From Candidatus Ozemibacter sibiricus (GTDB lineage Bacteria; Muiribacteriota; Ozemobacteria; Ozemobacterales; Ozemobacteraceae): a DNA stretch of 47,189 bases. The position numbers were made by a program, and so were the translations under genes. The DNA lies in the NCBI GenBank assembly GCA_003327425.1, contig QOQW01000033.1, positions 1 to 47,189 on the forward strand. Reading direction: 5' to 3'. The stretch's first letter is position 1, and each line of letters opens with the position of its first letter. Below, piece by piece: positions 28,330 through 42,070 of the stretch. The notes under the pieces were generated by a model. The model was not told the origin of the DNA. It saw nothing but the letters and a program-made list of their open reading frames with translations, and made no database searches.

Positions 28330-29553
28330 ATGAACGGCCGCCAGATCCATTCCGAGATTCGTCGTTTCCGATTCGGCCTGGGTGTTCTCGTCTTCCCCAT
28401 TCTTTTGATGAACCTTTGGTCGCCTTCCCCCGCGGCGGGGGCGGTGCCCATCGACGTTGTGATGGGGCGCGCCGGCAAGGGCATCGTCGCCACGTTGCAT
28501 CGCGCCTGCGCCATCTTGAGCCAGATCGGCGGCCAGACCTTCTCGGCCGCCGTCGCTTCGACCGCTTTCGCGCCGGGCAACCGGAAGGTGCGGGTGACGA
28601 TCACCGGCGTCATCCTGGTGCCCGGCCGCTATGTGCGAGGCCGGGTGCTCGCCAGCCTGAACCAGGACTGCCCGTTGCCCAGCCGCCCCGAATGCCAGGG
28701 GCTGTTCCGGCTCGAGCTGCCGGCCAATGCCGCCCAGGCCGATGCACGCACGAGCTATCGGGTCCCGTTCCGGCTCGACCTGGCCGTCGACGTCGAGGCG
28801 ACCCTGAAAGTGCTGACGATGATGGGACTGGGGTTCGGCCTCAAGCAGGTCGACCTGTTCCCCGACGAGGCGTTCCTGCGGCAGCTCAACCATCTTCCCG
28901 CGTCGAATCTGCACACGGTGCTGGGGCGGTTCTTCCCCAGCTTCGTCTCCTTCCTCGAGAAGCGCACCGTCTCGCGCGCCGTCGACGAGATCCTGGCCGA
29001 CGGCCGGCTGACCGGCACCCGGGCCTTGCAGGGGCTGGGTCTCGACGAGCTGGTCGGCTTCGGGATCAACTTCGGCCTGGGCTTGGCCCAGATGGCCGCC
29101 ACCACCTGGGTCAAAGAGGCGGTCGCCCTCGGCGCCGGCAGCGCCGCCCTGGCCATGCCAGGCATGGCTCCCATCGCAGTGGGGGCAATCTTGCAGGTGG
29201 TGGCGGTCAAAGCCACCGGCATGCTGATCGACATAGGCAAAGAGCAGTTCCAGGCCGGCATCTATCGCGACCGATTCGCCAAGATCGAAGCCTTCTTCAT
29301 GGGCACCTGGTCGCCCGGCGAGCACCACATTCCCTGGCTGATCGACACGGTCACCGCCGAGGCGAAGAAAGACCGCTTCGACACCATCCAGAAGCTGATT
29401 CTCTATTTGCGAGCCCAGGCGCCCGCCAGGCGCGGCTGGTGGAACCCCCTCCATCCGAAGCTGCGCGCCCCGCTCGCCTTCCGCGCCCAGCAGGAAGGCT
29501 CGTGGCTGGCCGAGCGTTACCTCGCCATGTGGGACCTGCTCTTCGCCCGCTGA
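28330..29553 (+). CDS. Exported protein of unknown function with glycine-rich hydrophobic hairpin
   Basis: Family not recognised. CGGAGGA lies 6 bases before the ATG. Residues 15-38 form a signal sequence (FGLGVLVFPILLMN...PAAGA). A strand-rich part with a Cys pair (QDCPLP and PECQG) follows at about 115-130. Residues about 235-300 form two hydrophobic Gly/Ala-rich stretches (VGFGINFGLGLAQMAA; MPGMAPIAVGAILQVVAVKA) that could insert in a membrane as a hairpin. The C-terminal 90 residues are helical with many aromatics (FMGTWSPGEHHIPWL). It could be a periplasmic or outer-envelope protein; no enzyme motif is visible. It ends in an Arg/Trp-rich helix before a 200-base convergent gap. Confidence 0.72.
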   Translation: MNGRQIHSEIRRFRFGLGVLVFPILLMNLWSPSPAAGAVPIDVVMGRAGKGIVATLHRACAILSQIGGQTFSAAVASTAFAPGNRKVRVTITGVILVPGRYVRGRVLASLNQDCPLPSRPECQGLFRLELPANAAQADARTSYRVPFRLDLAVDVEATLKVLTMMGLGFGLKQVDLFPDEAFLRQLNHLPASNLHTVLGRFFPSFVSFLEKRTVSRAVDEILADGRLTGTRALQGLGLDELVGFGINFGLGLAQMAATTWVKEAVALGAGSAALAMPGMAPIAVGAILQVVAVKATGMLIDIGKEQFQAGIYRDRFAKIEAFFMGTWSPGEHHIPWLIDTVTAEAKKDRFDTIQKLILYLRAQAPARRGWWNPLHPKLRAPLAFRAQQEGSWLAERYLAMWDLLFAR

Positions 29554-29751
29554 CCGCCCCACGCGCTGACCGGATCGCTGGCGCTGCGGCCTGAGCGAAG
29601 CCTCCCCCTGGCGCTCCCCCGCGCGCAGCGACAGGGCAATCCAACGGCAAAGTTTCTGGGCGGAAGGGCAGCGTGCAGCTTCAACGCAGATCCGAAGCAC
29701 GAGGAATTCCTCCGCCTCTCCTGAACATCGGCGACCTGAGCAAGGCGATGC

Positions 29752-30966
29752 TCAAGGCAAGGCGGAAAGGAAGCGATCGGCTGAAACGACCCAGGCGTAG
29801 CCGCCTTCTGTCTTTCGCCGGAAACAAACCCCGGGGGTATGTATGACTTGAATGCCGAACGGAACGTGCAGCGCCTCTTGAAAATGTACCAGGCTTTTGG
29901 CCAGGGTCTGATCGTGGAGCTTGCTTTCGATGAGGCAGATGGGGCGGTTCCGGTCAGCGATGAGGAAATCGACTTCCCGCTTTTCGAGGTCGCGTAGATA
30001 GTGGAGCGTCACCTCGGCCTGGCCCATCGCCCGCCACAAGGCGACAGCCTTCTTCAGATGCAGGGCGAGCAGGTTCTCGAACCGACGTCCCTCATCAGCC
30101 AGTTCCGCCCAATCGTACGAGTAGACCTTGGCTTCTTTCCTGATCGCTCGTTTGATCGACGGCGCAAACGGTGGAATCCGGAAAATGACGTAGAACTGCT
30201 CGAGCACCGCCAACCAATCCTTGACCGTATCGAAGGCGACCTGGAGGTCTTCACGAAGAGAGTTGAGTGAAAGGGGCGCACCTACCCGTTCGGGCAGAAG
30301 CCGGGAAAGAGTTTCGACGCCGCTGATCTGGCGAATGGCGGTCGCATCGCGGATATCCTCACGCACGAGAAGCTTGCGCCGCTCCTCCGACCACCGGCGA
30401 TAGAAGCCGATCTGGGCACGCTTGAGAGGCTCGGGAAACCCTCCGAAGCGAAACAAAGCTTCGTAGTGCGGACAGGCGGGAAGGTCGCCCGGCGCTTCCA
30501 GAGCTCGAAGAAATTCCTGCCACGAACTGCTTCTCTCCTGAAGTTCACCGACGGTCAACGGATAGAGAGGAAGATGGAAATACCGACCAAGGAGGCTGTC
30601 GCCGCCTTTCTGGAAGAGATCGAGGCGTCCGCTGCCGGTCACCAGGATCGCCATCTCGGCCTCGAACTGGTCGAACACCCCTTTCAGGTAGTTCTTCCAT
30701 CCCCTGAGTTTGTGGATCTCGTCAAAGATGACCAAAAAATCGCGGCGAGGGTCGCGGCGGTCCTTCTCGAAGAAAGCCGGGTCGACGCGAAGTTCGCTCT
30801 GGTGGGCCGGAATGTCCCAGTTGAAATAGCGTCGCTGGGGGAAGCAATCACCGATCTTCTTGGCCAAGGTGGTCTTGCCGACCTGTCGAGGCCCTGAAAT
30901 GAAGGCCATTTTTCGGAAATCGCGCAGAATCTCTAGAACAGGGGCCACCAAGGTCCTGGGGAACAT
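29752..30966 (-). CDS. AAA+ ATPase with DUF4143 nuclease-like C-terminus
   Basis: Common bacterial/archaeal accessory ATPase of unsettled function, often in variable regions. The N-terminal AAA+ core has Walker A SGPRQVGKTTLAK (24-36), Walker B FLVIFDEIHKLRG and sensor 1 VTGSGRLDLF. A winged-helix region (LSLNSLREDLQVAF) follows. The C-terminal DUF4143 part has RRFENLLALHL, KREVDFLIA and ICLIESKL, the E...D...ExK pattern of PD-(D/E)xK nucleases. The ATG at 30966 (AGGAG 12 bases before it) fits the domain start; an in-frame extension to 31197 would run through a set of inverted repeats and is rejected. The 404-residue length is normal. Its 5' region holds a striking AT-rich operator-like array. 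Confidence 0.9.
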   Translation of the reverse strand: MFPRTLVAPVLEILRDFRKMAFISGPRQVGKTTLAKKIGDCFPQRRYFNWDIPAHQSELRVDPAFFEKDRRDPRRDFLVIFDEIHKLRGWKNYLKGVFDQFEAEMAILVTGSGRLDLFQKGGDSLLGRYFHLPLYPLTVGELQERSSSWQEFLRALEAPGDLPACPHYEALFRFGGFPEPLKRAQIGFYRRWSEERRKLLVREDIRDATAIRQISGVETLSRLLPERVGAPLSLNSLREDLQVAFDTVKDWLAVLEQFYVIFRIPPFAPSIKRAIRKEAKVYSYDWAELADEGRRFENLLALHLKKAVALWRAMGQAEVTLHYLRDLEKREVDFLIADRNRPICLIESKLHDQTLAKSLVHFQEALHVPFGIQVIHTPGVCFRRKTEGGYAWVVSADRFLSALP

Positions 30967-30969
30967 ATT

Positions 30970-31031
30970 GATATTTTTCTCCTGATGTCGAAAAAAATCA
31001 AGATATTTTTCGACATCGGTCGAAAAATATC
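30970..31031 (-). promoter_or_regulatory. Alternating inverted-repeat array before the DUF4143 ATPase gene
   Basis: Four related AT-rich half-sites (core GATATTTTTCGA) alternate in direction: 30970-30980 (+), 30984-30999 (-), 31002-31017 (+), 31018-31031 (-). The second and third pair over 15 bases with one mismatch (arms 30984-30998 and 31003-31017); the third and fourth pair over 12 bases perfectly (31002-31013 and 31020-31031). The hairpins are mutually exclusive. The block abuts the ribosome binding site (30979-30983) and contrasts with its GC-rich surroundings. An operator or attenuator-like switch is inferred. Confidence 0.6.
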
Positions 31032-31206
31032 GAATCGGTCGGGCGGTCGGTTCCCTCGCGCGGTGGTGAGGCGGCCATGGGCCGGCCGGCGTCTGCCAAG
31101 GCATTCTGGCGCCGGGAATGGGGCGTTGGCACGGCCAGGCATCGAGCTTGGCAGGCCCGGGGAACCATGGTAAGGTCGAGGCGATCAGCGGTTCCACCGG
31201 TGGAAC

Positions 31207-33399
31207 ATGACCAGTTCAGGCGCTATCTGCTTCTCGATCTTGCACACCAATGACCTCCATTCCCTCTTCGAGGGGCTGGGGCCAGACGGGTGCCTACGCC
31301 TGGCAACCGGGAGCGGCGATCCGGTCAAGGGGCATTACGCGAGGCTGGCCACCCTGATCAAGACCCTGCGCGCCGAGCGGGAGGCTCGCGGCGAGACCGT
31401 CTTCCTGGTCGATGCCGGCGATGCCGAGTTCGGCTCTCTCTTCCACCTGCTGGGGCCGCGGCCCGATCATCCCGAGATGCCCGAGTACCGGTTCTTCCAT
31501 GATCTCGGCTACGATCTGCTCGGCATCGGCAACCACTTCTTCGAATCAGGGCATGCCGGGCGGGCCAATGCCTGGCGCAAGGTCGAAGCACAAGGCCTGC
31601 GGGTGCCGTTCCTGATCTCGAATGCGATCCTGCCATCGGCGACCGACGGGCCGGACGCGGGGTCGCCACCGGCAGCGAAGGCCGCGTCGACGCTCGATGA
31701 CGAGATCGACGGCGCCGACGGCGAGCCGCCGGGGGCGTTTGTGGCCCGGCGGTTTCGGGCCGGACTTCTCACCGATCGCACGACGGGGTTCCACCGGCTG
31801 GCGGTGCGCGAGATCGCCACGCCGGCCGGCCCGTCCCTGCGAATCGGCTGGCTGGGTCTGCTGGGCCCCTATGGGGCCAAGGTGTCTCTGGCCAATCGCC
31901 CCGACCTGCGGTTCGTGGGGTACGATGACGAGACGGGGAAGGAGCGGCCGGCCGACCTGCACGCGCTGGCGCGGCGGCTGGTCGATGAGCTGCGCCAGGT
32001 GCATCGCGCCGAGGTGGTCGTGGCCATCTTCCATGGCGGGCATCCCGAGGATCAGGCGCTGGCCCGGGCGGTGCCGGGCCTCGACGTGGTGATCGCCGGC
32101 CATACGCATGCCACCTACGCCGAGACGGTCGGACGCACGGTGATCGCCCAGGCCGGCTATGGCAGCGCCTGGCTGGGCTGCCTCGATTTCGCCTGGGAAG
32201 GAGGCCGCTTGACCTGGCTGCATCAGGCAACCGCCCTGCGGCCGGTGACCAGTGCGCTGACCGCCGACCCCGCCGTGGCCGCCCAGATCGACGACTACAA
32301 GTGGGCCATCGACCGTCTGCTGGCCAGGCCGAGACCGCCAGTCGCCGCCGGCGGCCGCAGCGACACGCCAGCCGCGATCGCGGCTTCCCGCGCCACCGAC
32401 GCGGCCGCTTCCACATTCCAGCCGGTCGCTCGAGCCGCCATGTCAGGTGGCCCTCGCGACCGCGCCCAGGCCGGCCCCCCGCTGGGCGCCCAAGCCGAGG
32501 ACGGCGCCGACGCCCAGGTCGGCACCCAGGCTGGTGGTTGGCCCAATCCCAAGGGCGATGCCCAGGCCCACCCTTCAGCCGGCGCCGCCCCAGGCAGCAC
32601 ACCTGGCGGCACATCCGGCGGCTCACCTGGCGACGCCGCTGGCCCCCCGATCGGCGACGAGGCGGCTTCCGATCTCGAAGAACCGGCCTTCACCTACGCC
32701 ACGCCCGTCTTCCGGCTCGAGCGCGACCTGCCCCGCCGCCGGTTCCCCGACAATGCCGCCGGGCGGTTCGTCGCCAGCGCCCTGCTGGCCGAAATCAACC
32801 GCCGCCTCGCCCCGCCGGTCGACGTGTTCTTCTCGAGCTACGGCCTGGTGCGCTCCGAGTTCCTCTGCGTGAACGGCCAGCCTACCACCTTCCAGTATTC
32901 CGACATCTTCAAGTTCTTTCCGTTGGGCCTCAGTCCAGACTTCCGCGTCGGCACCCCCATCCATACCTTCTTCCTGACGCGATCCGACCTGCGCAGCCTG
33001 CTCGAGGGCATGGCCGCCGTCGGCATGGTGTTCCCGGTCTTCGAGCCCGTGACCTCGGATTCGCTGACCTTCGGCATCGCCTGGTGGGGCGTGCCCTTCT
33101 ACAACAAGATCCGCGATCTGCGTCTGCACGGCGAGCCGTTCGTCGCCGACGAGCGGCTGGTCCATGTCGCCACCGACGAGTATTTCGCCCGCCACCTGCG
33201 CCGCATCAAGACCTTGAGCATGGGCCTGGCCCGGGCCGTCCCGCGCGATGCCGCCGGCCGCGAGCTGGAGCGCTTCCCCCCCAGCCCCCTGCCGCCCGAG
33301 CACGACCTGCTGGCCTGCCACCTACGCCGTTTGTTTCCAGATCCCTCTCGCCCCACGGTGGAAGGACAAAAACCGCCCGAATGTAGCCAAGCGCCTTGA
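31207..33399 (+). CDS. 5'-nucleotidase/2',3'-cyclic phosphodiesterase family protein
   Basis: Two-domain metallophosphoesterase of the UshA family. The N-terminal catalytic domain has LHTNDLHS (metal Asp16, His18), DAGDAEFGS, GIGNHFFE (family GNHEFD, so the motif is altered), FHGGHPED and VVIAGHTHATY. The C-terminal substrate domain starts near residue 495 and shows FPDNAAGRFVASALL, PVDVFFSSYGLVRSEF and YSDIFKFFPLG, where relatives have the N-S-G-x-R nucleoside-binding segment. Between them lies a linker of about 120 residues rich in Ala, Gly, Pro and Asp (about 375-495). No signal peptide is visible, which is unusual for this mostly periplasmic family. 730 residues. It precedes the three-gene cassette by about 170 bases, on the same strand. 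Confidence 0.86.
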   Translation: MTSSGAICFSILHTNDLHSLFEGLGPDGCLRLATGSGDPVKGHYARLATLIKTLRAEREARGETVFLVDAGDAEFGSLFHLLGPRPDHPEMPEYRFFHDLGYDLLGIGNHFFESGHAGRANAWRKVEAQGLRVPFLISNAILPSATDGPDAGSPPAAKAASTLDDEIDGADGEPPGAFVARRFRAGLLTDRTTGFHRLAVREIATPAGPSLRIGWLGLLGPYGAKVSLANRPDLRFVGYDDETGKERPADLHALARRLVDELRQVHRAEVVVAIFHGGHPEDQALARAVPGLDVVIAGHTHATYAETVGRTVIAQAGYGSAWLGCLDFAWEGGRLTWLHQATALRPVTSALTADPAVAAQIDDYKWAIDRLLARPRPPVAAGGRSDTPAAIAASRATDAAASTFQPVARAAMSGGPRDRAQAGPPLGAQAEDGADAQVGTQAGGWPNPKGDAQAHPSAGAAPGSTPGGTSGGSPGDAAGPPIGDEAASDLEEPAFTYATPVFRLERDLPRRRFPDNAAGRFVASALLAEINRRLAPPVDVFFSSYGLVRSEFLCVNGQPTTFQYSDIFKFFPLGLSPDFRVGTPIHTFFLTRSDLRSLLEGMAAVGMVFPVFEPVTSDSLTFGIAWWGVPFYNKIRDLRLHGEPFVADERLVHVATDEYFARHLRRIKTLSMGLARAVPRDAAGRELERFPPSPLPPEHDLLACHLRRLFPDPSRPTVEGQKPPECSQAP

Positions 33400-33566
33400 C
33401 ACTCCAGCGCCAAGAGGGTTGAATGATGGGCGGCGATTTGGGTTCAGCATTGCCAGCCCCAGGCTCACCGCCCCGTCGCGCTGGCAGGTCGGGCACGATG
33501 CGGGCTTTCTTCGACCCAAGGCGCGATGGCGGGAATCGATCCTCGAACAAAGCGGAAGGAGGACTC

Positions 33567-33982
33567 ATGGGGTAGATTTTCTCGACGCTCATGACCGGCA
33601 CTAGGAAGATGCCGAACTCCTGTTCGCCCAGAGGCGTTGGGCCAATGTCGACCATCTCTACGGTCTGGCGGCTGAATGTGGTCTGAAACGGCTGATGCAA
33701 GCCTTCGGCATGCGTCTCGACAAAGCCAACACCCGCCCTGTCTCCCCAGAAGACAGGGTTCACATCGAGAAAGTTTGGACACGCTACGAAGCCTATCAGT
33801 CTGGACATCGGGCGGGAATCGCTTACCCGCTGCCCCCGAAGAATCCCTTCGATGACTGGGAGATCGCTCAGCGCTATCAGCATCGTTCGACATTCGACCA
33901 GACGCGCGTCGAAACGCATCGCACCGGGGCCAGAGCCGTCCGAACCCTGGTTGCCAAAGCCCACAAGGAAGGATTGGTATGA
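33567..33982 (+). pseudogene. Broken small helical (HEPN-like) gene, first member of a three-gene cassette
   Basis: AAGGAGG precedes an ATG at 33567, but GGG TAG follows at once. One base out of phase, the reading continues VDFLDAHDRH, TAG, EDAELLFAQRRWANVDHLYG, then LAAECGLKRLMQAFGM to a stop at 33982. This reads as a real protein of about 137 residues whose start has lost one G from a G run (33569-33572), and in which a codon, probably TGG, has become TAG at 33602. The helical AAECGLK pattern recalls HEPN-type proteins. An internal ATG at 33695 could still yield a 95-residue C-terminal piece. Its stop overlaps the next ATG as ATGA. A sequencing error in the G run could account for the frameshift but not for the amber. 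Confidence 0.68.
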
Positions 33983-35295
33983 CCACCTTCGATGGCATCC
34001 TTCCCCACCTGCGCGAAGTTCTCGGTTCCCATCGTCAGACCCTCGAAGAACTCGACTGGTTCGTGGTCAATCGCGACCTCAACGGTCGGGTGCGACTGAT
34101 CGTCCCTGAAGCCACCGCCTCCAATCCCGATGTTCGCGCGCGGCTCGAACAACTCTATGCCGAACTCGCAAGACAGATCGCGCCCCACCACCACTCTGGC
34201 GGCACTGGCCTCCTCTATGAACCCGACCTCGACATCAGCCTGGAACATGGATCGCGCACCCCTATCGAAGGGTTTTCCAACGGGTGGATGGTCGATCGTC
34301 TGGCTGTCGACAGCCATTGGACCGACATCGCCCCCGAGCATGGCGACCCACCCCGCATCGTTTTCGCCTCCCTCAAAGGGGGGGTAGGACGCTCGACCGC
34401 CCTCGCCGCCTGCGCCTGGAAGCTCGCGCAGCACGGCAAGCGGGTGCTGGTCCTCGATCTCGACCTCGAATCGCCGGGGCTCTCGAGCAGCTTGCTGCCG
34501 GAGGATCGCCAGCCTTCCTACGGAGTCACCGATTGGCTGGTCGAAGACCTGGTCGATAATGGCGGGTCTGTTTTGCAAGAAATGTTCGCGGCCAGTCCCT
34601 TGTCGCACGACGGCGAGATCTACGTCGTGCCAGCCCACGGCCGCGACCCTGGCGAATACCTGGCCAAGCTCGGCCGGGTCTGGATGCCGAACGTCGGCGC
34701 CGACGGTTCGCGCGAACCATGGACAGCCCGCTTGCGCAGGCTGCTGGCCGAGCTGGAAAAAAACCTTCGCCCCGACGTCACCCTGATCGATGCCCGCGCC
34801 GGCCTCAGCGAGATCGCCTCGAGCTGCATCGCCGGCCTCGAAGCGCGGCTGATCTTGCTGTTCGCGATCGATGGGCATCAGAGCTGGAGTGGGTATCGCC
34901 TCTTGTTTCGCCACTGGCAGCGGGCCGGAATCGCCGAGTTGATCCGCGATCGGTTGCAGATGGTGGCGGCCATGGTTCCCGAGATCGACCCGGCGAGCTA
35001 TCTCGCTGCTTTCCGGGAAGAAGCCCATGATTTGTTCCTGGATACCCTCTATGACGAGATTCCTCCGAACGGCGAAGGATGGAACTTCGATCTGGCCGAT
35101 GACACCGCGCCGCACCACCCCTGGCCGGTGCGTTGGCATCGCGGGTATGCCGCCCTCCGCACGCTGCACGGGAAACTGGCCACCGTCGACGATGACGAGA
35201 TCCGCCACACCTTCGGCGGATTGATCGATCCCCTGGAGCGGAGTCTGGGGTGGGGCGATGGCGACGAGATCAGGCCGCCAGGAGGGAACCGGTGA
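33979..35295 (+). CDS. ParA/MinD-like deviant-Walker ATPase of an unassigned cassette
   Basis: 438 residues. The first 120 residues are a domain I do not recognise (FVVNRDLNGRVRLIVPE; RLEQLYAELARQIAPHHH). Then comes a SIMIBI ATPase: deviant Walker A KGGVGRST (133-140), where ParA has KGGVGKT-like sequence, LVLDLDLESPGLSS (157-170, A' region), and DVTLIDARAGLSEIAS as the Walker B/switch II segment. The signature Lys at the start of the P-loop is kept, implying dimerisation over ATP. It is coupled to the broken upstream gene by ATGA and to the downstream NTPase by GTGA, so the three were one operon. No ParB or centromere-like repeats are nearby, so plasmid-type segregation is unlikely. Confidence 0.85.
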   Translation: MTTFDGILPHLREVLGSHRQTLEELDWFVVNRDLNGRVRLIVPEATASNPDVRARLEQLYAELARQIAPHHHSGGTGLLYEPDLDISLEHGSRTPIEGFSNGWMVDRLAVDSHWTDIAPEHGDPPRIVFASLKGGVGRSTALAACAWKLAQHGKRVLVLDLDLESPGLSSSLLPEDRQPSYGVTDWLVEDLVDNGGSVLQEMFAASPLSHDGEIYVVPAHGRDPGEYLAKLGRVWMPNVGADGSREPWTARLRRLLAELEKNLRPDVTLIDARAGLSEIASSCIAGLEARLILLFAIDGHQSWSGYRLLFRHWQRAGIAELIRDRLQMVAAMVPEIDPASYLAAFREEAHDLFLDTLYDEIPPNGEGWNFDLADDTAPHHPWPVRWHRGYAALRTLHGKLATVDDDEIRHTFGGLIDPLERSLGWGDGDEIRPPGGNR

Positions 35296-36713
35296 CCGAA
35301 GCCCCGACCAATGTTGAAGCCCGCGCCCTGCGCGAGGCGATTCTGCAAGCGCCGCTCGAGACGAGCCAGGATCCTCTGGCCATTCCCTCGCCGGAAACGC
35401 TGTATCTTCCCCCCTCGCATGGCAAAGTCCTGAACTTGGATGCACAGGTGGTCATCGGCGGTCGAGGCACCGGAAAATCGTTCTGGACAGCGGCGCTCCA
35501 GTCTGATCTGATACGACACCGCCTGGGAACCACGGTTCACGATCTGGCGAGTCTCTCGGTGCACATCGGCTTCTCGAGCGCCGCACGGTTCAACGATTAT
35601 CCGAATGCCGATGTGTTCGCGGCTTGCTTCGACCAGCGACGCGAACCGTTCGATCTCTGGCGAGCCGTGATCGTTCGCTGGATCGCCGCCAAAGAAGGCG
35701 AAGCCATCCCTCGTTCGAGCTGGCAAGACACGATCGACTGGATGAAGGCTCGCCCCGAAGAGGTCGCCCGCGTGATGGAGCGACCGCGTCACTGGCGGGG
35801 CCTGATTCTGTTCGACGCCCTCGATCGCACCACCACTGTCTGGGAACGCATGGATACCATCGTCCGCGACCTCTTGCGCGCCGTGCTGTGGTTGAAAGGG
35901 TTTGCCGGGCTGTATGCGAAGGTATTTTTGCGCGAAGATCAAGCCGAACGCCAGGTTTTCAATTTCCCCGACGCCTCCAAGCTGGTTCCCACCAAGGTCG
36001 AGTTGTCCTGGGCCCGCCATGACCTGCACGGCTTGCTCTGGCAGCGCCTGATCAATGCTCAAAACGAGTACGGCGAGCGGCTTCGCGCCATTTGCCCGCA
36101 TCGCTCTCGCGGGCAATACTGGGAAGTCGACGAAGAAATGAAACGAGAGAGCCCTGCCCAACGCCAGGCCTTCGAACGCCTGGCCGGCCCCTGGATGGGA
36201 CGCGATCGTCGCCGCGGCGTTCCCTACACCTGGGCGATCAGCCACCTGGCCGACGGCAAAGGGCGCACATCGCCTCGTTCATTTTTGGCGGCGATTCGAC
36301 AGGCGGCCGAGGACTCCCGCGACCGCTATCCCCAACACGAGTTCGCCCTCCATTTCGAGAGTATCAAGCGCGGCATCCAGAAAGCATCCGAGATCCGGGT
36401 CGCCGAGATCGCCGAAGATTACCCCTGGGCGACGGCACTGCTGTCGCTCCTACGGGGAATGAACGTCCCCTGCGAATGGCGCGAAGTAGAGGCGCGGTGG
36501 GCCGCCCAGTTTCCCGAAGGCCCCGACCACATTCACGTCACCGCCCCACAACTCCCGCCCCCGCATGCTCGCCAAGGGTGGGAAGGCGTCCGGGACGACC
36601 TGCTGCGCCTCGGCCTGCTCGACCGCAAGAAAGACGGGCGCCTCGACATGCCCGATCTGTATCGGGTGGGGTTCGGCCTGGGCCGGAAAGGAGGCGTCAA
36701 GCCCCGGGCCTGA
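35292..36713 (+). CDS. P-loop NTPase partner of the ParA-like ATPase
   Basis: The start is a GTG at 35292 overlapping the previous stop (GTGA), with AGGAGGG 6 bases upstream; an earlier in-frame ATG at 35250 lies inside the neighbour. The 473-residue protein has Walker A IGGRGTGKSFW (55-65) and a Walker B-like GLILFDALDRTTTVW, followed by helical blocks (DTIVRDLLRAVLWLKG; VFLREDQAERQVFNFPDASK). The C-terminal 250 residues are helical, with a likely winged helix (WEGVRDDLLRLGLLDRKKDG). The layout recalls STAND-like or AAA-type signalling NTPases but I cannot name the family. No nuclease motif is evident, so an effector, if any, may be the broken HEPN-like gene. Confidence 0.82.
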   Translation: MTEAPTNVEARALREAILQAPLETSQDPLAIPSPETLYLPPSHGKVLNLDAQVVIGGRGTGKSFWTAALQSDLIRHRLGTTVHDLASLSVHIGFSSAARFNDYPNADVFAACFDQRREPFDLWRAVIVRWIAAKEGEAIPRSSWQDTIDWMKARPEEVARVMERPRHWRGLILFDALDRTTTVWERMDTIVRDLLRAVLWLKGFAGLYAKVFLREDQAERQVFNFPDASKLVPTKVELSWARHDLHGLLWQRLINAQNEYGERLRAICPHRSRGQYWEVDEEMKRESPAQRQAFERLAGPWMGRDRRRGVPYTWAISHLADGKGRTSPRSFLAAIRQAAEDSRDRYPQHEFALHFESIKRGIQKASEIRVAEIAEDYPWATALLSLLRGMNVPCEWREVEARWAAQFPEGPDHIHVTAPQLPPPHARQGWEGVRDDLLRLGLLDRKKDGRLDMPDLYRVGFGLGRKGGVKPRA

Positions 36714-36858
36714 GGGTTGTTGCCTGGCCGGCCCGTTGGAACGAAGCATACGCTTCGGCCGACTTCGCTGCGCCATGCCTGCCTTTCCCGGCGCAGACCC
36801 CCGCCAGGGCCACGCCGCTGCCGAATGCCGTAGCCGTTCAGTGAACGGGTACGCTTCG

Positions 36859-36879
36859 CTGGCGATAAATCGCCAGTTT
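36859..36879 (+). terminator. Hairpin between the cassette and the toxin-antitoxin pair
   Basis: Arms CTGGCGAT (36859-36866) and ATCGCCAG (36869-36876) are perfectly complementary, followed by TTT on +. A second palindrome, CCGTTCA-G-TGAACGG, sits just upstream (36834-36848). They separate convergent transcription units. The T-run is short, so efficiency is doubtful. Confidence 0.45.
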
Positions 36880-37307
36880 CATGGCCTCTTCGAAAAGGGA
36901 TGTTTTTCAAGCAGATAGTCTTTAATTGAGCAGGAGATCTTTGGAAACGCTTTAAGAATCTCTCGGTCTGTCGTAACCAATGGGGCCCCAATCTCTTCGG
37001 CAATCGCGACAAATTCAAGGTCGTAGGCGGTGCACGTGGAACTCTCGATCAACTCTACAACTTTCGCTGGTTGAGCCGACAATTCGCGATTAAGAAAAAA
37101 CAGCTCAGCCTCTTCAGCAATCCGTATTGCATTGATCGAAGAAACGAGTTTTTTTCGAAGGTATTCAGCTATGACATTGCGAAATTCATATCGCCAAAGG
37201 TGGGAGGTAAACCACTGAGGGTCTTTGAGAAATAATTCATTGGTTAATTCAGTAAATTGCCCGGGCAGGAAATGGTAAACGATTACTTGAGTATCAACGA
37301 CAATCAT
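36879..37307 (-). CDS. PIN-domain toxin, VapC/FitB-type
   Basis: Predicted endoribonuclease toxin. The PIN active-site acids are visible: Asp5 in MIVVDTQVIVY, Glu41 in LWRYEFRNVIAEYL, Asp96 in TAYDLEFVAIAEE, and Asp114 in LVTTDREIL. The length of 142 residues is family-typical. The start overlaps the antitoxin stop by four bases, the usual VapBC/FitAB order with antitoxin first. The gene is more AT-rich than its neighbours, which fits horizontal acquisition. It acts in the cytoplasm and is held inactive by the partner. The RNA target cannot be deduced. Confidence 0.92.
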   Translation of the reverse strand: MIVVDTQVIVYHFLPGQFTELTNELFLKDPQWFTSHLWRYEFRNVIAEYLRKKLVSSINAIRIAEEAELFFLNRELSAQPAKVVELIESSTCTAYDLEFVAIAEEIGAPLVTTDREILKAFPKISCSIKDYLLEKHPFSKRP

Positions 37308-37543
37308 TTCCTGCCCTTGCTGATCATTTTCGTCAAATCTTCCTCTTTGAGGAAGCCATTAACCAATTTTCTCAATTGCTTTACCTTCTCAAGTTCGGCC
37401 TGAGGATCGATCTTTCGAGGGAAGAGGATCTCGTGCAAGCACGCGATGATCTCGTTGTTTACGCTACGGAAGTTTCTCTTCGCCCGCTCCTTGATGGCCT
37501 CGTGAATGGCTGGGGGGATGTTCTTCACCAGAATGGAAGCCAT
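37304..37543 (-). CDS. Ribbon-helix-helix antitoxin, FitA/VapB-type
   Basis: 79 residues. The N-terminus MASILVKNIPPAIHEAIKER is the strand-helix of an Arc/MetJ-type DNA-binding domain typical of FitA-like antitoxins, followed by a second helix (RSVNNEIIACLHEIL). The C-terminal half (KVKQLRKLVNGFLKEEDLTK) is charged and probably wraps the toxin. AAGGAGGTG precedes the ATG. Like other antitoxins it probably represses its own operon, and a small inverted repeat lies over its ribosome binding site. Composition is AT-rich relative to neighbours. Confidence 0.9.
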   Translation of the reverse strand: MASILVKNIPPAIHEAIKERAKRNFRSVNNEIIACLHEILFPRKIDPQAELEKVKQLRKLVNGFLKEEDLTKMISKGRK

Positions 37544-37552
37544 GGCGCACCT

Positions 37553-37568
37553 CCTTATACCAATAAGG
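37553..37568 (-). promoter_or_regulatory. Candidate operator of the toxin-antitoxin operon
   Basis: CCTTAT and ATAAGG (37553-37558, 37563-37568) form a perfect inverted repeat with a 4-base spacer, overlapping the antitoxin ribosome binding site. This fits a dimeric ribbon-helix-helix repressor site. Inferred from position and symmetry. Confidence 0.45.
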
Positions 37569-37575
37569 TAGCATA

Positions 37576-38034
37576 ATGGTCCTTTTCTTCCAAGCCGGAA
37601 GGCTCTCCAACCCCGTAACGCCAGCGATGTTGCGCTCAGCTCAAGTCCTGATCCAACGGACTGGAAAGGTCAGCCCCCTGGGCCTCTCCATCTTCGAGGA
37701 CAAGGTCGTGCCGCGGGCGGTCCGCATTATCCTCAGTTCCATCTACGAGCAGGGCTTCTTCGAGGTGTCGTTCGAGCTCCGAAAAGGCCACAGCCCTCAT
37801 GCGGCGATCCGGGAGTGGCACAAACGTCTGGCGGGCCTGAAGGCGACGTGGGTCAGCGACGCCAACATCAGTGGATCCCTCGCCTCCATCAACCACTGGA
37901 TGCTGATCGACCTGCTCCGGCAACGGCGCCACGGCGACACGCTCGTGCGTCTGGTCGGAAAATGGCGCAAGGCAGGATCACAACTACCATCGAGCACACG
38001 TGAGTCCCGCCGGTATTCCAACCCCCGGGCATAA
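37576..38034 (+). pseudogene. Group II intron reverse transcriptase fragment
   Basis: From about residue 26 the 152-residue translation follows the N-terminal RT blocks of group II intron proteins: TGKVSPLGLSIFEDKVVPRA (family GKxRPLGIPTLEDKIVQRA), IYEQGFFEVSFELRKGHSPH (family IYEPDFLxxSYGFRPGRSxH), then ATWVSDANISGSLASINH (family xWVLDADIxGFFDNIDH) and LVRLVGKWRKAG. It stops before the YADD box and lacks maturase and endonuclease parts. The first catalytic Asp is replaced (Asn97), so it is dead. No intron domain V hairpin was found nearby. It directly abuts the toxin-antitoxin promoter region, as if the pair or a deletion had cut the element. Confidence 0.82.
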
Positions 38035-38174
38035 AACTGCACCTAGCGAGGGCCATATTTCCGCATGGGCGGCGGAAGATGCCAGAACCTTTTTCTGATG
38101 AGGGTTGGAAGGGCGGTTGGAGGTGGCTCGAGCCGCCAAGGGTACGGCGAACGGTAAAAAAGAATGCAAACAAC

Positions 38175-38201
38175 TGTCACAGATCGGCGCCGCGTTCGGT
38201 C
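38175..38201 (+). promoter_or_regulatory. ECF-like promoter element, copy 1 (gene A1)
   Basis: TGTCACA (38175-38181), 16 bases, GGTC (38198-38201). The same pattern with the same spacing precedes each of the four duplicated genes, ending about 50 bases before the start. It resembles the ECF41-type consensus TGTCACA-N16-CGTC as I recall it. Confidence 0.6.
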
Positions 38202-38249
38202 GTTTCAGGCAAGAAATCCGAACGAAATTCGCAGAAGGAGAGATAAGCC

Positions 38250-39104
38250 ATGAAAGCCTGGATGAGCACTCTGGTGGCGGTGGTTCTGGTTCTGAGTGGT
38301 AGCGCGATGCTACTGGCGGCGGACGAGCCGGTCTCGCTCAAGGCGCAGGAGGCGGCGGTCGCCGTGCAGGCCAAGTGGGGCCTGATCAAGATGGCCATCG
38401 ACGACCTGGCCGACGAGCGCATGGCCAGGAACAACGATTCCCTGCAGGCGTATGAGACGGTCCTGGTGCGGGTAAAGGAGTTTGTGCCCCAGGCCCTGTC
38501 CCGCTATGTGCTGGCCAAGGACGCCAAACGGCTGGACCCCGTGGTCGTGCAGAAGATCGAGGCGGCCGCCCAGACTCTGGCTCGCATCGACTACGGCGTG
38601 AATGCGAAGAACGATCCGGCCAAGGCGACCGACCTCGTGATCGCCCGCGCCCGCCAGATCGGCCAGGATCTCGAGAAGCTGTTCGCCGAGCTGCCGCAGC
38701 CCCGGCTCCGGCTCTCTTACGAGCAGGCTCGCCAGATCCTCGATGACGAAGTCTACGCGGTCTTCGATTTCCTGCATGTCCACTACCGGCTGGTCGATCC
38801 GCCGATCGCCGCCGATGGCCCCACCGCTTCGCGCCTGGGCCTGCTGCACAGCCTGGCCTTCGCTACCGCCTCGCGGATGTTCGAATACCTGGTCTCGAAC
38901 CGGATGATCGTCACCACCAGAACCACCCCGATCATCCGCGAGATCAACGAACTGTTCTCCCTGACGGTTCGCGTGACCCAGAAGTTCGCCGAGAACACCA
39001 GCGCCACCTGGCCCTGGAAGGAGTTCCAGGCGAAGCTGGCCGACCGCTACCTCGAAATCCTGGAAAAACTGGGCAACCTGCGCCTCGAGGTGCTGGCCCT
39101 GTAA
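38250..39104 (+). CDS. Secreted helical protein A1 (duplicated family)
   Basis: Family not recognised. AGAAGGAGAG precedes the ATG, and residues 1-24 form a Sec signal (MKAWMSTLVAVVLVLSGSAM...LLAA). The 260-residue mature protein appears all-helical: EAAVAVQAKWGLIKMAIDDL, LSRYVLAKDAKRLDPVVVQK, DLVIARARQIGQDLEKLF, ILDDEVYAVFDFLHVHYRLV and ASRLGLLHSLAFATASRMFE. It lacks Cys and any catalytic signature. It has a close paralogue 2 kb downstream, and each is followed by a smaller secreted helical protein. This suggests a periplasmic or surface structural or binding role. No similarity to known toxins or adhesins was recognised. Confidence 0.82.
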   Translation: MKAWMSTLVAVVLVLSGSAMLLAADEPVSLKAQEAAVAVQAKWGLIKMAIDDLADERMARNNDSLQAYETVLVRVKEFVPQALSRYVLAKDAKRLDPVVVQKIEAAAQTLARIDYGVNAKNDPAKATDLVIARARQIGQDLEKLFAELPQPRLRLSYEQARQILDDEVYAVFDFLHVHYRLVDPPIAADGPTASRLGLLHSLAFATASRMFEYLVSNRMIVTTRTTPIIREINELFSLTVRVTQKFAENTSATWPWKEFQAKLADRYLEILEKLGNLRLEVLAL

Positions 39105-39128
39105 AAATCTGGTCCCCCCCATCGTTGG

Positions 39129-39156
39129 AGCGGGCCGCCGGCAACGGCGGCCCGCT
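39129..39156 (+). terminator. GC-rich hairpin copy 1 (after A1)
   Basis: AGCGGGCCGCCG (39129-39140) and CGGCGGCCCGCT (39145-39156) form a perfect 12-bp stem with loop GCAA. No T-run follows. Identical stems occur at 39952 and 41207. Termination or mRNA 3'-end protection is inferred. Confidence 0.6.
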
Positions 39157-39202
39157 TGCTGTACAAAAAGCTCTCGAGCTACTTCGGTTAGAGGCGAGTG
39201 CT

Positions 39203-39229
39203 TGTCACAAAAGCCTCGACGTTTTGGTC
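39203..39229 (+). promoter_or_regulatory. ECF-like promoter element, copy 2 (gene B1)
   Basis: TGTCACA (39203-39209), 16 bases, GGTC (39226-39229); the ATG of B1 is about 48 bases downstream. Having its own element indicates B1 can be transcribed separately from A1. Confidence 0.58.
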
Positions 39230-39276
39230 CTTCATTTTGACATTTGGTACCACCAGAAGAGGGAGGGAAAAGGGCG

Positions 39277-39750
39277 ATGCGAATGCACACCAACTGGCGC
39301 ACTCCGGCCATCATCCTGGGAATGTGGTGGGTGCTGGCAGTCACGCAGGCAGTGGCCGCGGGCGTTTCGCCGCAAGACCTATTCCAGGCGGCGGCCCAGA
39401 TCAAGGTGGCAGCCAAGGACGTCAGGGAACTGGCTCACCGCCTCGAGGGCATCCGCCCCAACCCCACCATCATCGACGCCGCCCTGGCCAAGGTACGAAC
39501 GCTCAGTACGAAGATCCAGAACGCCAAAGCGGTCATCATCCGCCGCATGCAGGAACTATCCGGAAAGACGCACGTCTGGTTGCCGAATGAATTCAAACAG
39601 ATCGACCAGATCCTCGATCAGCTCCCCTTCCTCCTGACCACCGATCGCAATTTGAGCGCAACCTGCGACGCCTTGCATACCCTGAACAGTCATCTCAAGT
39701 GGCTGCACGGGGAAGCGCTCTACTTCGCCCGCTCGGCGCCTCGCCAGTGA
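39277..39750 (+). CDS. Secreted small helical protein B1 (duplicated family)
   Basis: 157 residues from the ATG at 39277 (GGGAGGG upstream); a TTG 33 bases earlier is in frame but less likely. Signal peptide: MRMHTNWRTPAIILGMWWVL...VAA. The mature part begins VSPQDLFQAAAQIKVAAKD and is helical throughout (VRTLSTKIQNAKAVIIRRMQ; IDQILDQLPFLLTTDRNLSA). One Cys is present late in the protein. B2 shares the signal, the PQDLFQAA start and the QLPF-LxTDR block but differs widely elsewhere. Function unknown; probably a partner of A1. Confidence 0.8.
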   Translation: MRMHTNWRTPAIILGMWWVLAVTQAVAAGVSPQDLFQAAAQIKVAAKDVRELAHRLEGIRPNPTIIDAALAKVRTLSTKIQNAKAVIIRRMQELSGKTHVWLPNEFKQIDQILDQLPFLLTTDRNLSATCDALHTLNSHLKWLHGEALYFARSAPRQ

Positions 39751-39951
39751 CCTCATGGCCATCGAGCCAATTCCAGAAATGATGGGCCGGCCGCTCTCTC
39801 GGTACCGAGGCGAAGCTGGGCACACTGCGCCACGCGGTGCTGATCATGGCCATCCGGCGAAGAAAGAGACCAGGCGCGATGTGAACCCGGGAGAATGGGG
39901 CCACGAAGGGACGCCCCCTTGAAGAGATCGAATCCTCCCCTTCATCGTCGG

Positions 39952-39979
39952 AGCGGGCCGCCGGCAACGGCGGCCCGCT
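39952..39979 (+). terminator. GC-rich hairpin copy 2 (after B1)
   Basis: Same 12-bp stem (arms 39952-39963 and 39968-39979), loop GCAA, about 200 bases after B1. The wider 500-base gap between B1 and A2 holds this hairpin and the third promoter element and no gene that I can support. Confidence 0.58.
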
Positions 39980-40175
39980 TGTCATTCGAGGAAGGGAGCT
40001 TCGCCTTGGCACGCAGCCAGGAGCTGGCGATCGGAGCGCTTGGTTCCGTGGAAAATGAGGTTCATCTGTTATTGGCACCCAAGACCGATGCCGACCGCCG
40101 ATTCATGAGGGGCCCGGGCCCGATGCGCCGTTCCGGCCACACCCGCACCAGCGTACAACCCACGAACCAAATAAT

Positions 40176-40202
40176 TGTCACGTTTCAACGGCGATTTCGG
40201 TC
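40176..40202 (+). promoter_or_regulatory. ECF-like promoter element, copy 3 (gene A2)
   Basis: TGTCACG (40176-40182), 16 bases, GGTC (40199-40202). The N16 spacer differs from copy 1 at many positions while both boxes are kept, which supports selection on the boxes. Confidence 0.6.
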
Positions 40203-40250
40203 GTTCCAAGCAAGAAACCCGAACGAAATTCACAGAAGGAGAGATAAGCC

Positions 40251-41117
40251 ATGAAAGCCTGGATGAGCACTCTGGTGGCGGTGGTTCTGGTACTGAGTGG
40301 CAGTGCGATGCTGCTGGCGGCGGGCGAGCCGGTCTCGCTCAAGGCGCAGGAGGCGGCGGTCGCCGTGCAGGCCAAGTGGGGCCTGATCAAGATGGCCATC
40401 GACGACCTGGTCGACGAGCGCCTAGCCAAGAACAACGATTCCCTGCCAGCGTACGAGACGATTTTGGTGCGGGTGAAGCAGTTCATGCCCCAGGCCCTTT
40501 CTCGCTATGTGCTGGCCAAGGACGCCAAACGGCTGGATCCCGCGGTCGTGCAGAAGATCGAGGCGGCCGCCCAGACTCTGGCTCGCATCGACTACGGACT
40601 GAACGCCAAGAATGATCCCGCCAAGGCGGCCAGCCTTGTGATCGCCCGCGCCCGCCAGATCGGCCAGGACCTCGAGAAGGTCTTCGCCCAACTGCCGCAG
40701 CCTCGGCTCCAGCTCTTTCCCGAGCGGGCCCGCCAGATCCTCGATGACGAGATCTACGCGATCTTCGATTTCCTGCATGTCCACTTCCGGCTGGTCGACC
40801 AGCCGATCGCCGCTGATGGCCCCACCGCTTCTCGCCTGGGCCTGCTGCACAGCCTGGCCTTCGCCACCGCCTCGCGGATGTTCGAATACCTGGTCTCGAA
40901 CCGAATGATCGTCACCCCTAAGACCAACCCGATCATCAGCGAGATCAACGAGATGTTCTACCTGACCATCCGCGTGACTCAGAAGTTCGCCGAAGAGCAC
41001 ACCAACACCGTCTGGCCTTGGGATAAGTTCCAGAAGCGGTTGGCCGAGCGCTACCTCGAGATCAAGGGGAAGCTGGACAACCTGCGCGGCGAGGTGCTGT
41101 CCTGGGCCATCCGGTAA
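40251..41117 (+). CDS. Secreted helical protein A2 (paralogue of A1)
   Basis: 288 residues with the same signal peptide, start context and helical plan as A1. The first 75 codons and the segment PTASRLGLLHSLAFATASRM are nearly unchanged; differences cluster in the last 60 residues (A2 ends with LSWAIR where A1 ends LEVLAL, and has an extra residue near EEHTNTVWPW). Substitutions are mostly conservative, indicating that both copies are under selection as functional proteins. Location is presumably periplasmic or extracellular. Function unknown. Confidence 0.82.
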   Translation: MKAWMSTLVAVVLVLSGSAMLLAAGEPVSLKAQEAAVAVQAKWGLIKMAIDDLVDERLAKNNDSLPAYETILVRVKQFMPQALSRYVLAKDAKRLDPAVVQKIEAAAQTLARIDYGLNAKNDPAKAASLVIARARQIGQDLEKVFAQLPQPRLQLFPERARQILDDEIYAIFDFLHVHFRLVDQPIAADGPTASRLGLLHSLAFATASRMFEYLVSNRMIVTPKTNPIISEINEMFYLTIRVTQKFAEEHTNTVWPWDKFQKRLAERYLEIKGKLDNLRGEVLSWAIR

Positions 41118-41206
41118 GGAAAAGGGCCCTGCGCAACGTGAAGCGTGACGAACTGGGCCGCAACGCCCTGGCCCCTTAAGAAGTGAATCCTCCCCCCCAT
41201 CGTTGG

Positions 41207-41234
41207 AGCGGGCCGCCGACACCGGCGGCCCGCT
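41207..41234 (+). terminator. GC-rich hairpin copy 3 (after A2)
   Basis: Same 12-bp stem (arms 41207-41218 and 41223-41234) but loop ACAC instead of GCAA. Loop change with an unchanged stem suggests the stem is what matters. Confidence 0.6.
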
Positions 41235-41278
41235 CGTCGTTCGAAGAACAGCGCCTGCCGTCAGGGGCGACAGGCATC

Positions 41279-41305
41279 TGTCACAAAATCCCCCGTCCGT
41301 CTGTC
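41279..41305 (+). promoter_or_regulatory. ECF-like promoter element, copy 4 (gene B2)
   Basis: TGTCACA (41279-41285), 16 bases, TGTC (41302-41305). It is the most divergent downstream box of the four; the spacing is still exact. Confidence 0.52.
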
Positions 41306-41347
41306 GGTTTGATTGAACAACACCGAAAAGAACAGGAGGACCTTCCG

Positions 41348-41827
41348 ATGCGCACGATCTCGACCTGGCGAACGCTGGCGATGGTGGCGGGAATGATGTG
41401 GGTATTGGCAGCATCTCAGGCGGTGGCGGCGAAAGTCACCCCCCAGGACCTGTTCCAGGCCGCGAGCCAGCTGAAGCTAGCGGCCAAGGAGGCCAAGGCT
41501 CTGGGCCAGGCCCTCAAACAGGCGCAGCCTGATGAGGCCACCATCGAATCAGCCGTGTCGCAGGTGAAAACCCTGAGCAGCCAGATCAAAAACGCCCAAG
41601 CAGTGGTGGCGCGCCATTTACGCACCCTCCCTTGGAAAACCCAATTCTGGTTTGAAGGGCCGCTCACGCACATCGACCTGATTCTAGAGCAGCTGCCGTT
41701 CATCCTGGCCACCGATCGGGATCTCATCAATGCCAGCGGCACGCTGAAAACCCTGTCCGAAGTTCTCGAGAATCTCCAGGGGGAAGTGAGATACATGGCG
41801 CAACGCGCTGCCGACTATGCCAGCTGA
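41348..41827 (+). CDS. Secreted small helical protein B2 (paralogue of B1)
   Basis: 159 residues from the ATG at 41348, which has AGGAGG 7 bases upstream; the in-frame ATG at 41183 is rejected because it lies before the hairpin and promoter element. Signal peptide MRTISTWRTLAMVAGMMWVL...AVAA. The mature protein begins VTPQDLFQAASQLKLAAKEA and stays helical (VSQVKTLSSQIKNAQAVVAR; LEQLPFILATDRDLINASG). Only about 40-45% identical to B1 by eye, much less than the A pair. No Cys. Function unknown. Confidence 0.8.
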   Translation: MRTISTWRTLAMVAGMMWVLAASQAVAAKVTPQDLFQAASQLKLAAKEAKALGQALKQAQPDEATIESAVSQVKTLSSQIKNAQAVVARHLRTLPWKTQFWFEGPLTHIDLILEQLPFILATDRDLINASGTLKTLSEVLENLQGEVRYMAQRAADYAS

Positions 41828-41908
41828 GGCTACTCCCTTCCCGTCAGCCGGCAGGCTCACCTGACAGAACGCAGAATCCTCTGGGAATCCCCCCCTCCCA
41901 GACTACCG

Positions 41909-41942
41909 CCCGGGGTTCCAGCCTATGGAATCCCGGGTGTTT
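41909..41942 (+). terminator. Rho-independent terminator after B2
   Basis: A 12-bp stem (41909-41920 and 41926-41937) reading CCCGGGGTTCCA/TGGAATCCCGGG with one G-U pair and a 5-base loop, followed by TGTTTT. It is about 80 bases after the B2 stop and unlike the three GC hairpins of the array. Confidence 0.75.
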
Positions 41943-42070
41943 TCATCAAGCGCCCTGTTTTTCCGCTGGACGTTTCATGGCATACTCCCATGAGCCTTGC
42001 GAAGTGACAAGACCCACCTGCTGCTCGGTTGGCTGTGGTCACACCGATTTCCCGAGGAGGGCTCAGAGGT

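Follow-up and report, generated by a model that had tools for sequence, protein, structure and literature searches.

A predicted four-half-site operator in the putative leaderless promoter of a PDC-S01 (AAA_14-DUF4143) ATPase gene of Candidatus Ozemibacter sibiricus

The window analysed here, the 47,189-nucleotide contig QOQW01000033.1 of Candidatus Ozemibacter sibiricus, carries on its minus strand (29752-30966) a gene encoding a protein of 404 amino acids, which matches the Pfam families AAA_14 (3e-24) and DUF4143 (3e-23), both above the cut-offs, and the PADLOC model PDC-S01 (6.4e-49). By profile match the gene is a PDC-S01 / AAA_14-DUF4143 ATPase and a candidate anti-phage gene. The protein itself gave no helix-turn-helix or nuclease match in Pfam with E values up to 1. 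An AlphaFold model computed from four sequences had a mean pLDDT of 57, and Foldseek returned mainly AAA+ ATPases among the matches listed, from which the rest of the fold was not read. A search of solved structures by sequence yielded no significant relative of the protein, and none was found on viral contigs. The gene belongs to a variable region of 12.6 kb (29554-42197); in G017, a genome of the same genus, the homologue of 28330-29553 directly joins sequence similar to 42198-44046. The same region (33979-36713 and 36879-37307) also holds a ParA/MinD-like ATPase gene, a gene without Pfam match that it overlaps, and then a PIN-domain gene.

PDC-S01 is a phage defence candidate of PADLOC in which an ATPase is fused to a domain of the PD-(D/E)XK superfamily; according to a 2026 survey it ranks fourth among defences across prokaryotes, with 9986 systems in Archaea and 29494 in Bacteria, and most such defence candidates await validation (PMC12988326). 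In rumen genomes PDC-S01 was the most frequent individual locus (PMC13356809). The gene TT_P0211 of Thermus thermophilus HB27, with AAA_14 and DUF4143 motifs, was 6.6-fold up with a plasmid in an Argonaute-bearing strain, and in the strain devoid of Argonaute no gene exceeded the threshold (PMC4406477). The induction of TT_P0211 hints at regulation, without a tie to an operator.

Upstream of the window gene, and ending 3 nt before its ATG (30966-30964), lies a 62-bp block (30970-31031, minus strand) composed of two 30-bp inverted repeats with 2 bp between them, each repeat consisting of a 10-bp half-site, a 10-bp spacer and a second 10-bp half-site. The minus strand reads GATATTTTTC-GACCGATGTC-GAAAAATATC-TT-GATTTTTTTC-GACATCAGGA-GAAAAATATC-AAT-ATG, the elements being half-site F1 (31022-31031), spacer 1 (31012-31021), half-site R1 (31002-31011), the 2-bp junction (31000-31001; TT in 37 of 49 loci), half-site F2 (30990-30999), spacer 2 (30980-30989) and half-site R2 (30970-30979). 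The entire block is also a single dyad, with 30-nt arms that are 87% complementary and stand 2 nt apart. The symmetry score, obtained from the six pairwise comparisons among the four half-sites and having a maximum of 60, was 57 for the block; the maximum among 5000 dinucleotide shuffles of the 100 bp at 30951-31050 was 39, that among 30 shuffles of the whole window was 38, and the best non-overlapping position of the window scored 37.

Four related half-sites of alternating orientation had been proposed at this place in the original prediction, and they were confirmed, the block being larger than first noted. The perfect inverted repeat, given before as 12 bp, extends over 13 bp (31002-31014 / 31019-31031), and the repeat with one mismatch, given as 15 bp, over 16 bp when read from the sequence (30984-30999 / 31002-31017). 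The AT-richness of the block was borne out as well, with 31% GC against 52%-73% in the 1-kb bins of the window. The statement that the block ends at the ribosome binding site was wrong: the block itself contains the AGGAG word (30979-30983, minus strand), which is 12 nt 5' of the ATG.

The same layout was sought before homologues taken from the phylum of the window itself (20 loci), from the phyla of two related loci titled Syntrophaceae and Elusimicrobia, and from plasmids. The best 90 of 99 matches were taken in one search (L231 was among the nine lowest omitted) and 66 of 67 in another; L027, L075 and L161 were left out as duplicates, being taken as equal to L030, L029 and L028, as were the loci fetched by DNA pattern only (L007-L026, L044-L062). 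With a symmetry score of 36 as the threshold, the layout was called upstream of 72 of the first 111 loci, a score reached by 0.14% of 2220 shuffles, and when alternative layouts were compared in these loci only those with a 32-bp period stood out. The enlarged set, in three groups representing three phyla, gave the layout upstream of 104/176 loci (10/20, 61/90 and 33/66 in the individual groups) and in 0/176 coding controls, and the 32-bp period was the peak in each group. The remaining 72 homologues fell under the threshold, some of them because they have another layout or a start that was misplaced. Of 421433 positions lying outside the upstream windows, 11 reached 36, two of which are located at -250 and -275 of L119 and L122. 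One chlamydial locus, on a plasmid of Candidatus Rhabdochlamydia and counted apart from the 176, has the same layout. The original prediction had been made to depend on conservation of the half-sites before close homologues; the check showed the geometry to be conserved and the half-site letters not.

A block score of at least 36 near a start was found in 91 of 177 loci. Forty-one diverse proteins were picked from these 91 block-bearing loci, and 40 of them (L124 was omitted) were aligned, a sample that represents block-bearing genes only; all 40 of the block-bearing proteins scanned matched PDC-S01 models. Pfam matches with E values up to 1 among them included HTH_11 (8/40), HTH_36 (6/40) and HSDR_N (13/40).

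The specificity of the motif was followed in 297 genomes. The 16-bp junction motif AATAGTCTTGACTATT occurs in them exactly eight times and its reversed control not once, and all eight occurrences are directly before a DUF4143 gene or its remnant. The motif was derived from DUF4143 loci, so their recovery is expected and the informative part is that it was met at no other place. In one locus (L226) the DUF4143 gene is decayed and the junction motif is still exact; in another (L225) the DUF4143 match spans residues 1-280. The exact 22-bp centre of the window's block had two matches in viral contigs, neither with a DUF4143-type gene in the stretch searched, which were taken as chance.

The position of the block coincides with promoter-like elements. 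Before the window gene a -35 element, TTGATT (30996-31001, minus strand), is predicted to begin 35 nt and a -10 element, AAAAAT (30973-30978, minus strand), 12 nt before the ATG, both hexamers being weak with 4/6 matches each. The comparison was extended to the 60 of the 91 loci in which the start (59 ATG, 1 GTG) is 2-4 nt past the block. TTGA is present at the junction in 52 of these 60, it being noted that TTGAC in part overlaps the half-site itself, and among the 50 loci whose -35 element has at least 5/6 matches, 46 have its first base at position -35 or -34 relative to the start codon. The best -10 element (at least 4/6 matches in 60/60) begins at -12 or -13 in 47/60, an uncontrolled count that picks the best match out of several positions in AT-rich DNA. 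Shine-Dalgarno words occur before 6/60 relatives and 5.4 were expected from shuffles, showing no enrichment. The TTGA at the junction together with a -10 element in the last half-site places the predicted transcription start at about the ATG (+1). By these predicted positions and the lack of Shine-Dalgarno enrichment the gene is predicted to be of the leaderless kind, with a putative start, and the dyad-symmetric sites overlap the gene's own promoter as its elements are predicted.

The original prediction left the choice between paired DNA sites for a protein and a leader RNA switching between hairpins; the data fit the first option and not the second. A switch in which alternative hairpins of the 5'-leader control translation is very improbable. 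The block does have a strong RNA fold (-27.9 kcal/mol, z -5.44), as would be the case for any such palindrome, and folded as RNA it forms one long nested hairpin. The switch was judged by whether pairs in a transcribed leader covary and tolerate G-U; this was not observed, since the dyad mismatches contain no excess of G-U (42 G-U against 46 A-C). The half-sites agree as direct repeats (F1=F2, R1=R2) as well as inverted ones, the promoter-like elements inside the block would start the transcript at about the ATG, and every Rfam match was under the gathering score, far below it. That the block is a DNA-level operator within a leaderless promoter is, in our judgement, very probable.

Alternatively, the block might have no regulatory function and mark where a mobile gene cassette ends, or serve as a site for recombination or for a nuclease, which we regard as improbable. 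The nearest homologue (L030, 76%) is similar in DNA from the outermost base of the block onward, up to 19 bp before the end of the gene, and the gene sits in a stretch missing there in G017, as such a reading would have it; that stretch, however, is about 12.6 kb long and not a single gene. No further copy of the half-site, with up to 2 mismatches, was detected elsewhere in the window, no recombinase family is recurrent in the flanks of the homologous loci, and the block coincides with the promoter positions. Of the two marks of a mobile-element terminus that were looked for, an adjoining recombinase and a second, matching copy at the opposite end, neither was found.

The letters of the half-sites are alike within a locus and different between loci. 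Half-sites among the homologues include GACTATTTTT, GGCTATTTTG, GACTTTTTTC, GACAATTTTC and GAGTAAAATC; the nearest homologue, L030, has the half-site GATATATTTA and the spacers CACAGTAGTC and GACTACTGTG, which are exact inverted copies. The frames neighbouring L030 resemble by eye what we take to be AbiE-type toxin-antitoxin genes. Across the 91 loci the half-site identity was 0.706 within a locus and 0.511 between loci, and it was 0.667 in the 195 pairs whose protein identity was at least 0.6. In a comparison of the first repeat with the second, the position of the block was set by the second repeat alone, with at least 7/10 matches, which was possible in 49/110 loci. The half-sites of the first repeat agreed with the second repeat of their own locus in 13.67 of 20 letters and with those of other loci in 11.17, the maximum of 10000 permutations being 12.37, and the agreement was better with the own locus in 39/49 cases. 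The spacers of a locus likewise resemble each other, whether they are compared inverted (4.73 against 3.34) or direct (4.51 against 3.20); inverted copying of spacers in general is not claimed, since the direct agreement almost equals the inverted one.

The letters of the half-sites were further compared with the regions of the protein. With 57 loci the nuclease region gave the peak of co-variation, r being 0.417 and the permutation maximum 0.351; with 91 loci that peak was gone and the highest value was found at residues 89-97 (r 0.293, permutation maximum 0.277). The unstable co-variation singled out no DNA-reading region of the protein. The helix-turn-helix region showed no co-variation with the half-site letters in either set and is for this reason not favoured as the reader of the letters.

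Ten further distant loci, a small hand-picked sample, were compared with 200 shuffles each. Dyads reached by at most 1/200 shuffles are present in L004, L246, L247 and L250. In L003, L245, L248 and L249 the dyads are weaker (equalled by 8 to 29 of 200 shuffles), and no dyad was found in L006 and in L244, the relative from the Thermus HB8 plasmid. Several of these dyads abut or overlap the start codon. The distant plasmid relatives (L245, L246, L248, L249, L250) have a different, single dyad situated at or near the start codon, the arms sharing CCTTG in all five and CCTTGCA or a close form in four. In the CCTTGCA subfamily letters are thus common to different genomes, and private letters are not universal. 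By eye, the dyad of L250 extends into an ATA where its relatives have ATG. A distant DUF4143 gene of the window's own genome, L004, has a perfect 12-bp dyad, the right arm of which crosses the start codon and extends into the gene (0/200 shuffles). Inspection by eye of five loci from plasmids or phages (L154-L158), kept outside the counts, showed only a short match at the junction in L154 and nothing clear in L155, L156 and L158. L157, from a Sulfitobacter plasmid, contains three 22-bp direct repeats at 1418-1500 before the ATG, without dyads, beside a restriction endonuclease gene and a gene annotated QatA.

It is usually a dedicated regulator that binds a dyad-symmetric operator in a promoter, and this speaks for an operator serving a separate regulator encoded elsewhere, such as a global or defence-wide repressor. 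Half-sites of the GACTATTTTT type do recur in many genomes, and the missing co-variation in the helix-turn-helix region of the ATPase points in the same direction. On the other hand, paralogues of the same genome differ in their half-sites: in 27 such pairs the half-site identity was 0.476, compared with a mean of 0.542 when the labels were permuted (a fraction of 0.008 of the permutations gave this value or a lower one), although against comparisons matched for protein identity it was lower in 16/27 pairs, which is not significant. With at most 1 mismatch allowed, the window's 14-bp half-site turned up at only one site of its own genome besides the three in the block, and that one lies, by eye, in a coding stretch. 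The survey of the flanks, covering flanks of about 1.5 kb at 66 loci and frames of at least 80 residues, revealed no recurrent regulator gene; the most recurrent family, by eye another P-loop ATPase of the same kind, was present in 5/66 loci with long flanks. A separate regulator appears on this evidence rather unlikely.

The ATPase itself is the most economical candidate for the binder, because the sites are private and the genes stand alone. We consider it probable that the control is gene-specific and that the ATPase represses its own gene, binding and repression being deduced from sequence. The block would be a gene-specific transcriptional operator inside a leaderless promoter of the sigma-70 type. 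Its two tandem 30-bp inverted repeats, with a period of 32 bp or about three helical turns, would offer four half-sites; the 2-bp junction between them would form the -35 element, the -10 element would lie in the last half-site, and transcription would start at or next to the ATG. A protein sitting on these sites would cover the -35 element, the -10 element and the start together and turn the gene off. The likeliest protein to do so would be the gene's own product, the AAA+ ATPase, given the helix-turn-helix and nuclease-like matches of its block-bearing relatives. Paralogues whose half-sites differ in their letters would then not interfere with each other.

Comparable arrangements are known from other systems. 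RepA of individual repABC operons binds its own operator, made of imperfect palindromes, and represses its own operon (PMC4492784). It resembles the present case in being an ATPase with palindromic operators, which there are replicon-specific, whereas binding is here only proposed; it differs in being a ParA-family partition protein of a three-gene operon, while the present gene stands singly, belongs to another ATPase family and is preceded by four half-sites (PMC4492784). The AbiEi/Rv2827c antitoxins likewise have a defence-linked promoter with inverted repeats, bound there by the own product, and the Rv2827c promoter contains two sets of inverted repeats, as does the block; unlike these two-gene toxin-antitoxin systems, the locus described here has just one gene, preceded by the 30+2+30 layout, and the letters differ from locus to locus (PMC7319586). 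Repeated sites in a defence promoter are shared with the RptR-controlled phage defence island, but there the control is by RptR, a small regulator separate from the defence genes, and a conserved 6-bp palindrome is present in three direct repeats, whereas here no separate regulator gene is recurrent and the letters vary (PMC12255303). A literature search, with few subscription papers in reach, recognised no description of an operator before DUF4143/PDC-S01 genes.

It is tempting to speculate further that an oligomer of the ATPase guards its own operator of four half-sites, in a fixed geometry and with a private code, and that it is dislodged by an infecting phage or by foreign DNA, allowing a burst of leaderless mRNA, a possibility that we advance tentatively from the sequence data. 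An operator in the promoter of a very common candidate defence gives a handle on the protein, the DNA, the mRNA start and the separation of paralogues. If the speculation is true, diversifying codes would keep the many paralogues of a cell independent, and specificity throughout the family could be read from the operator, as from a key.
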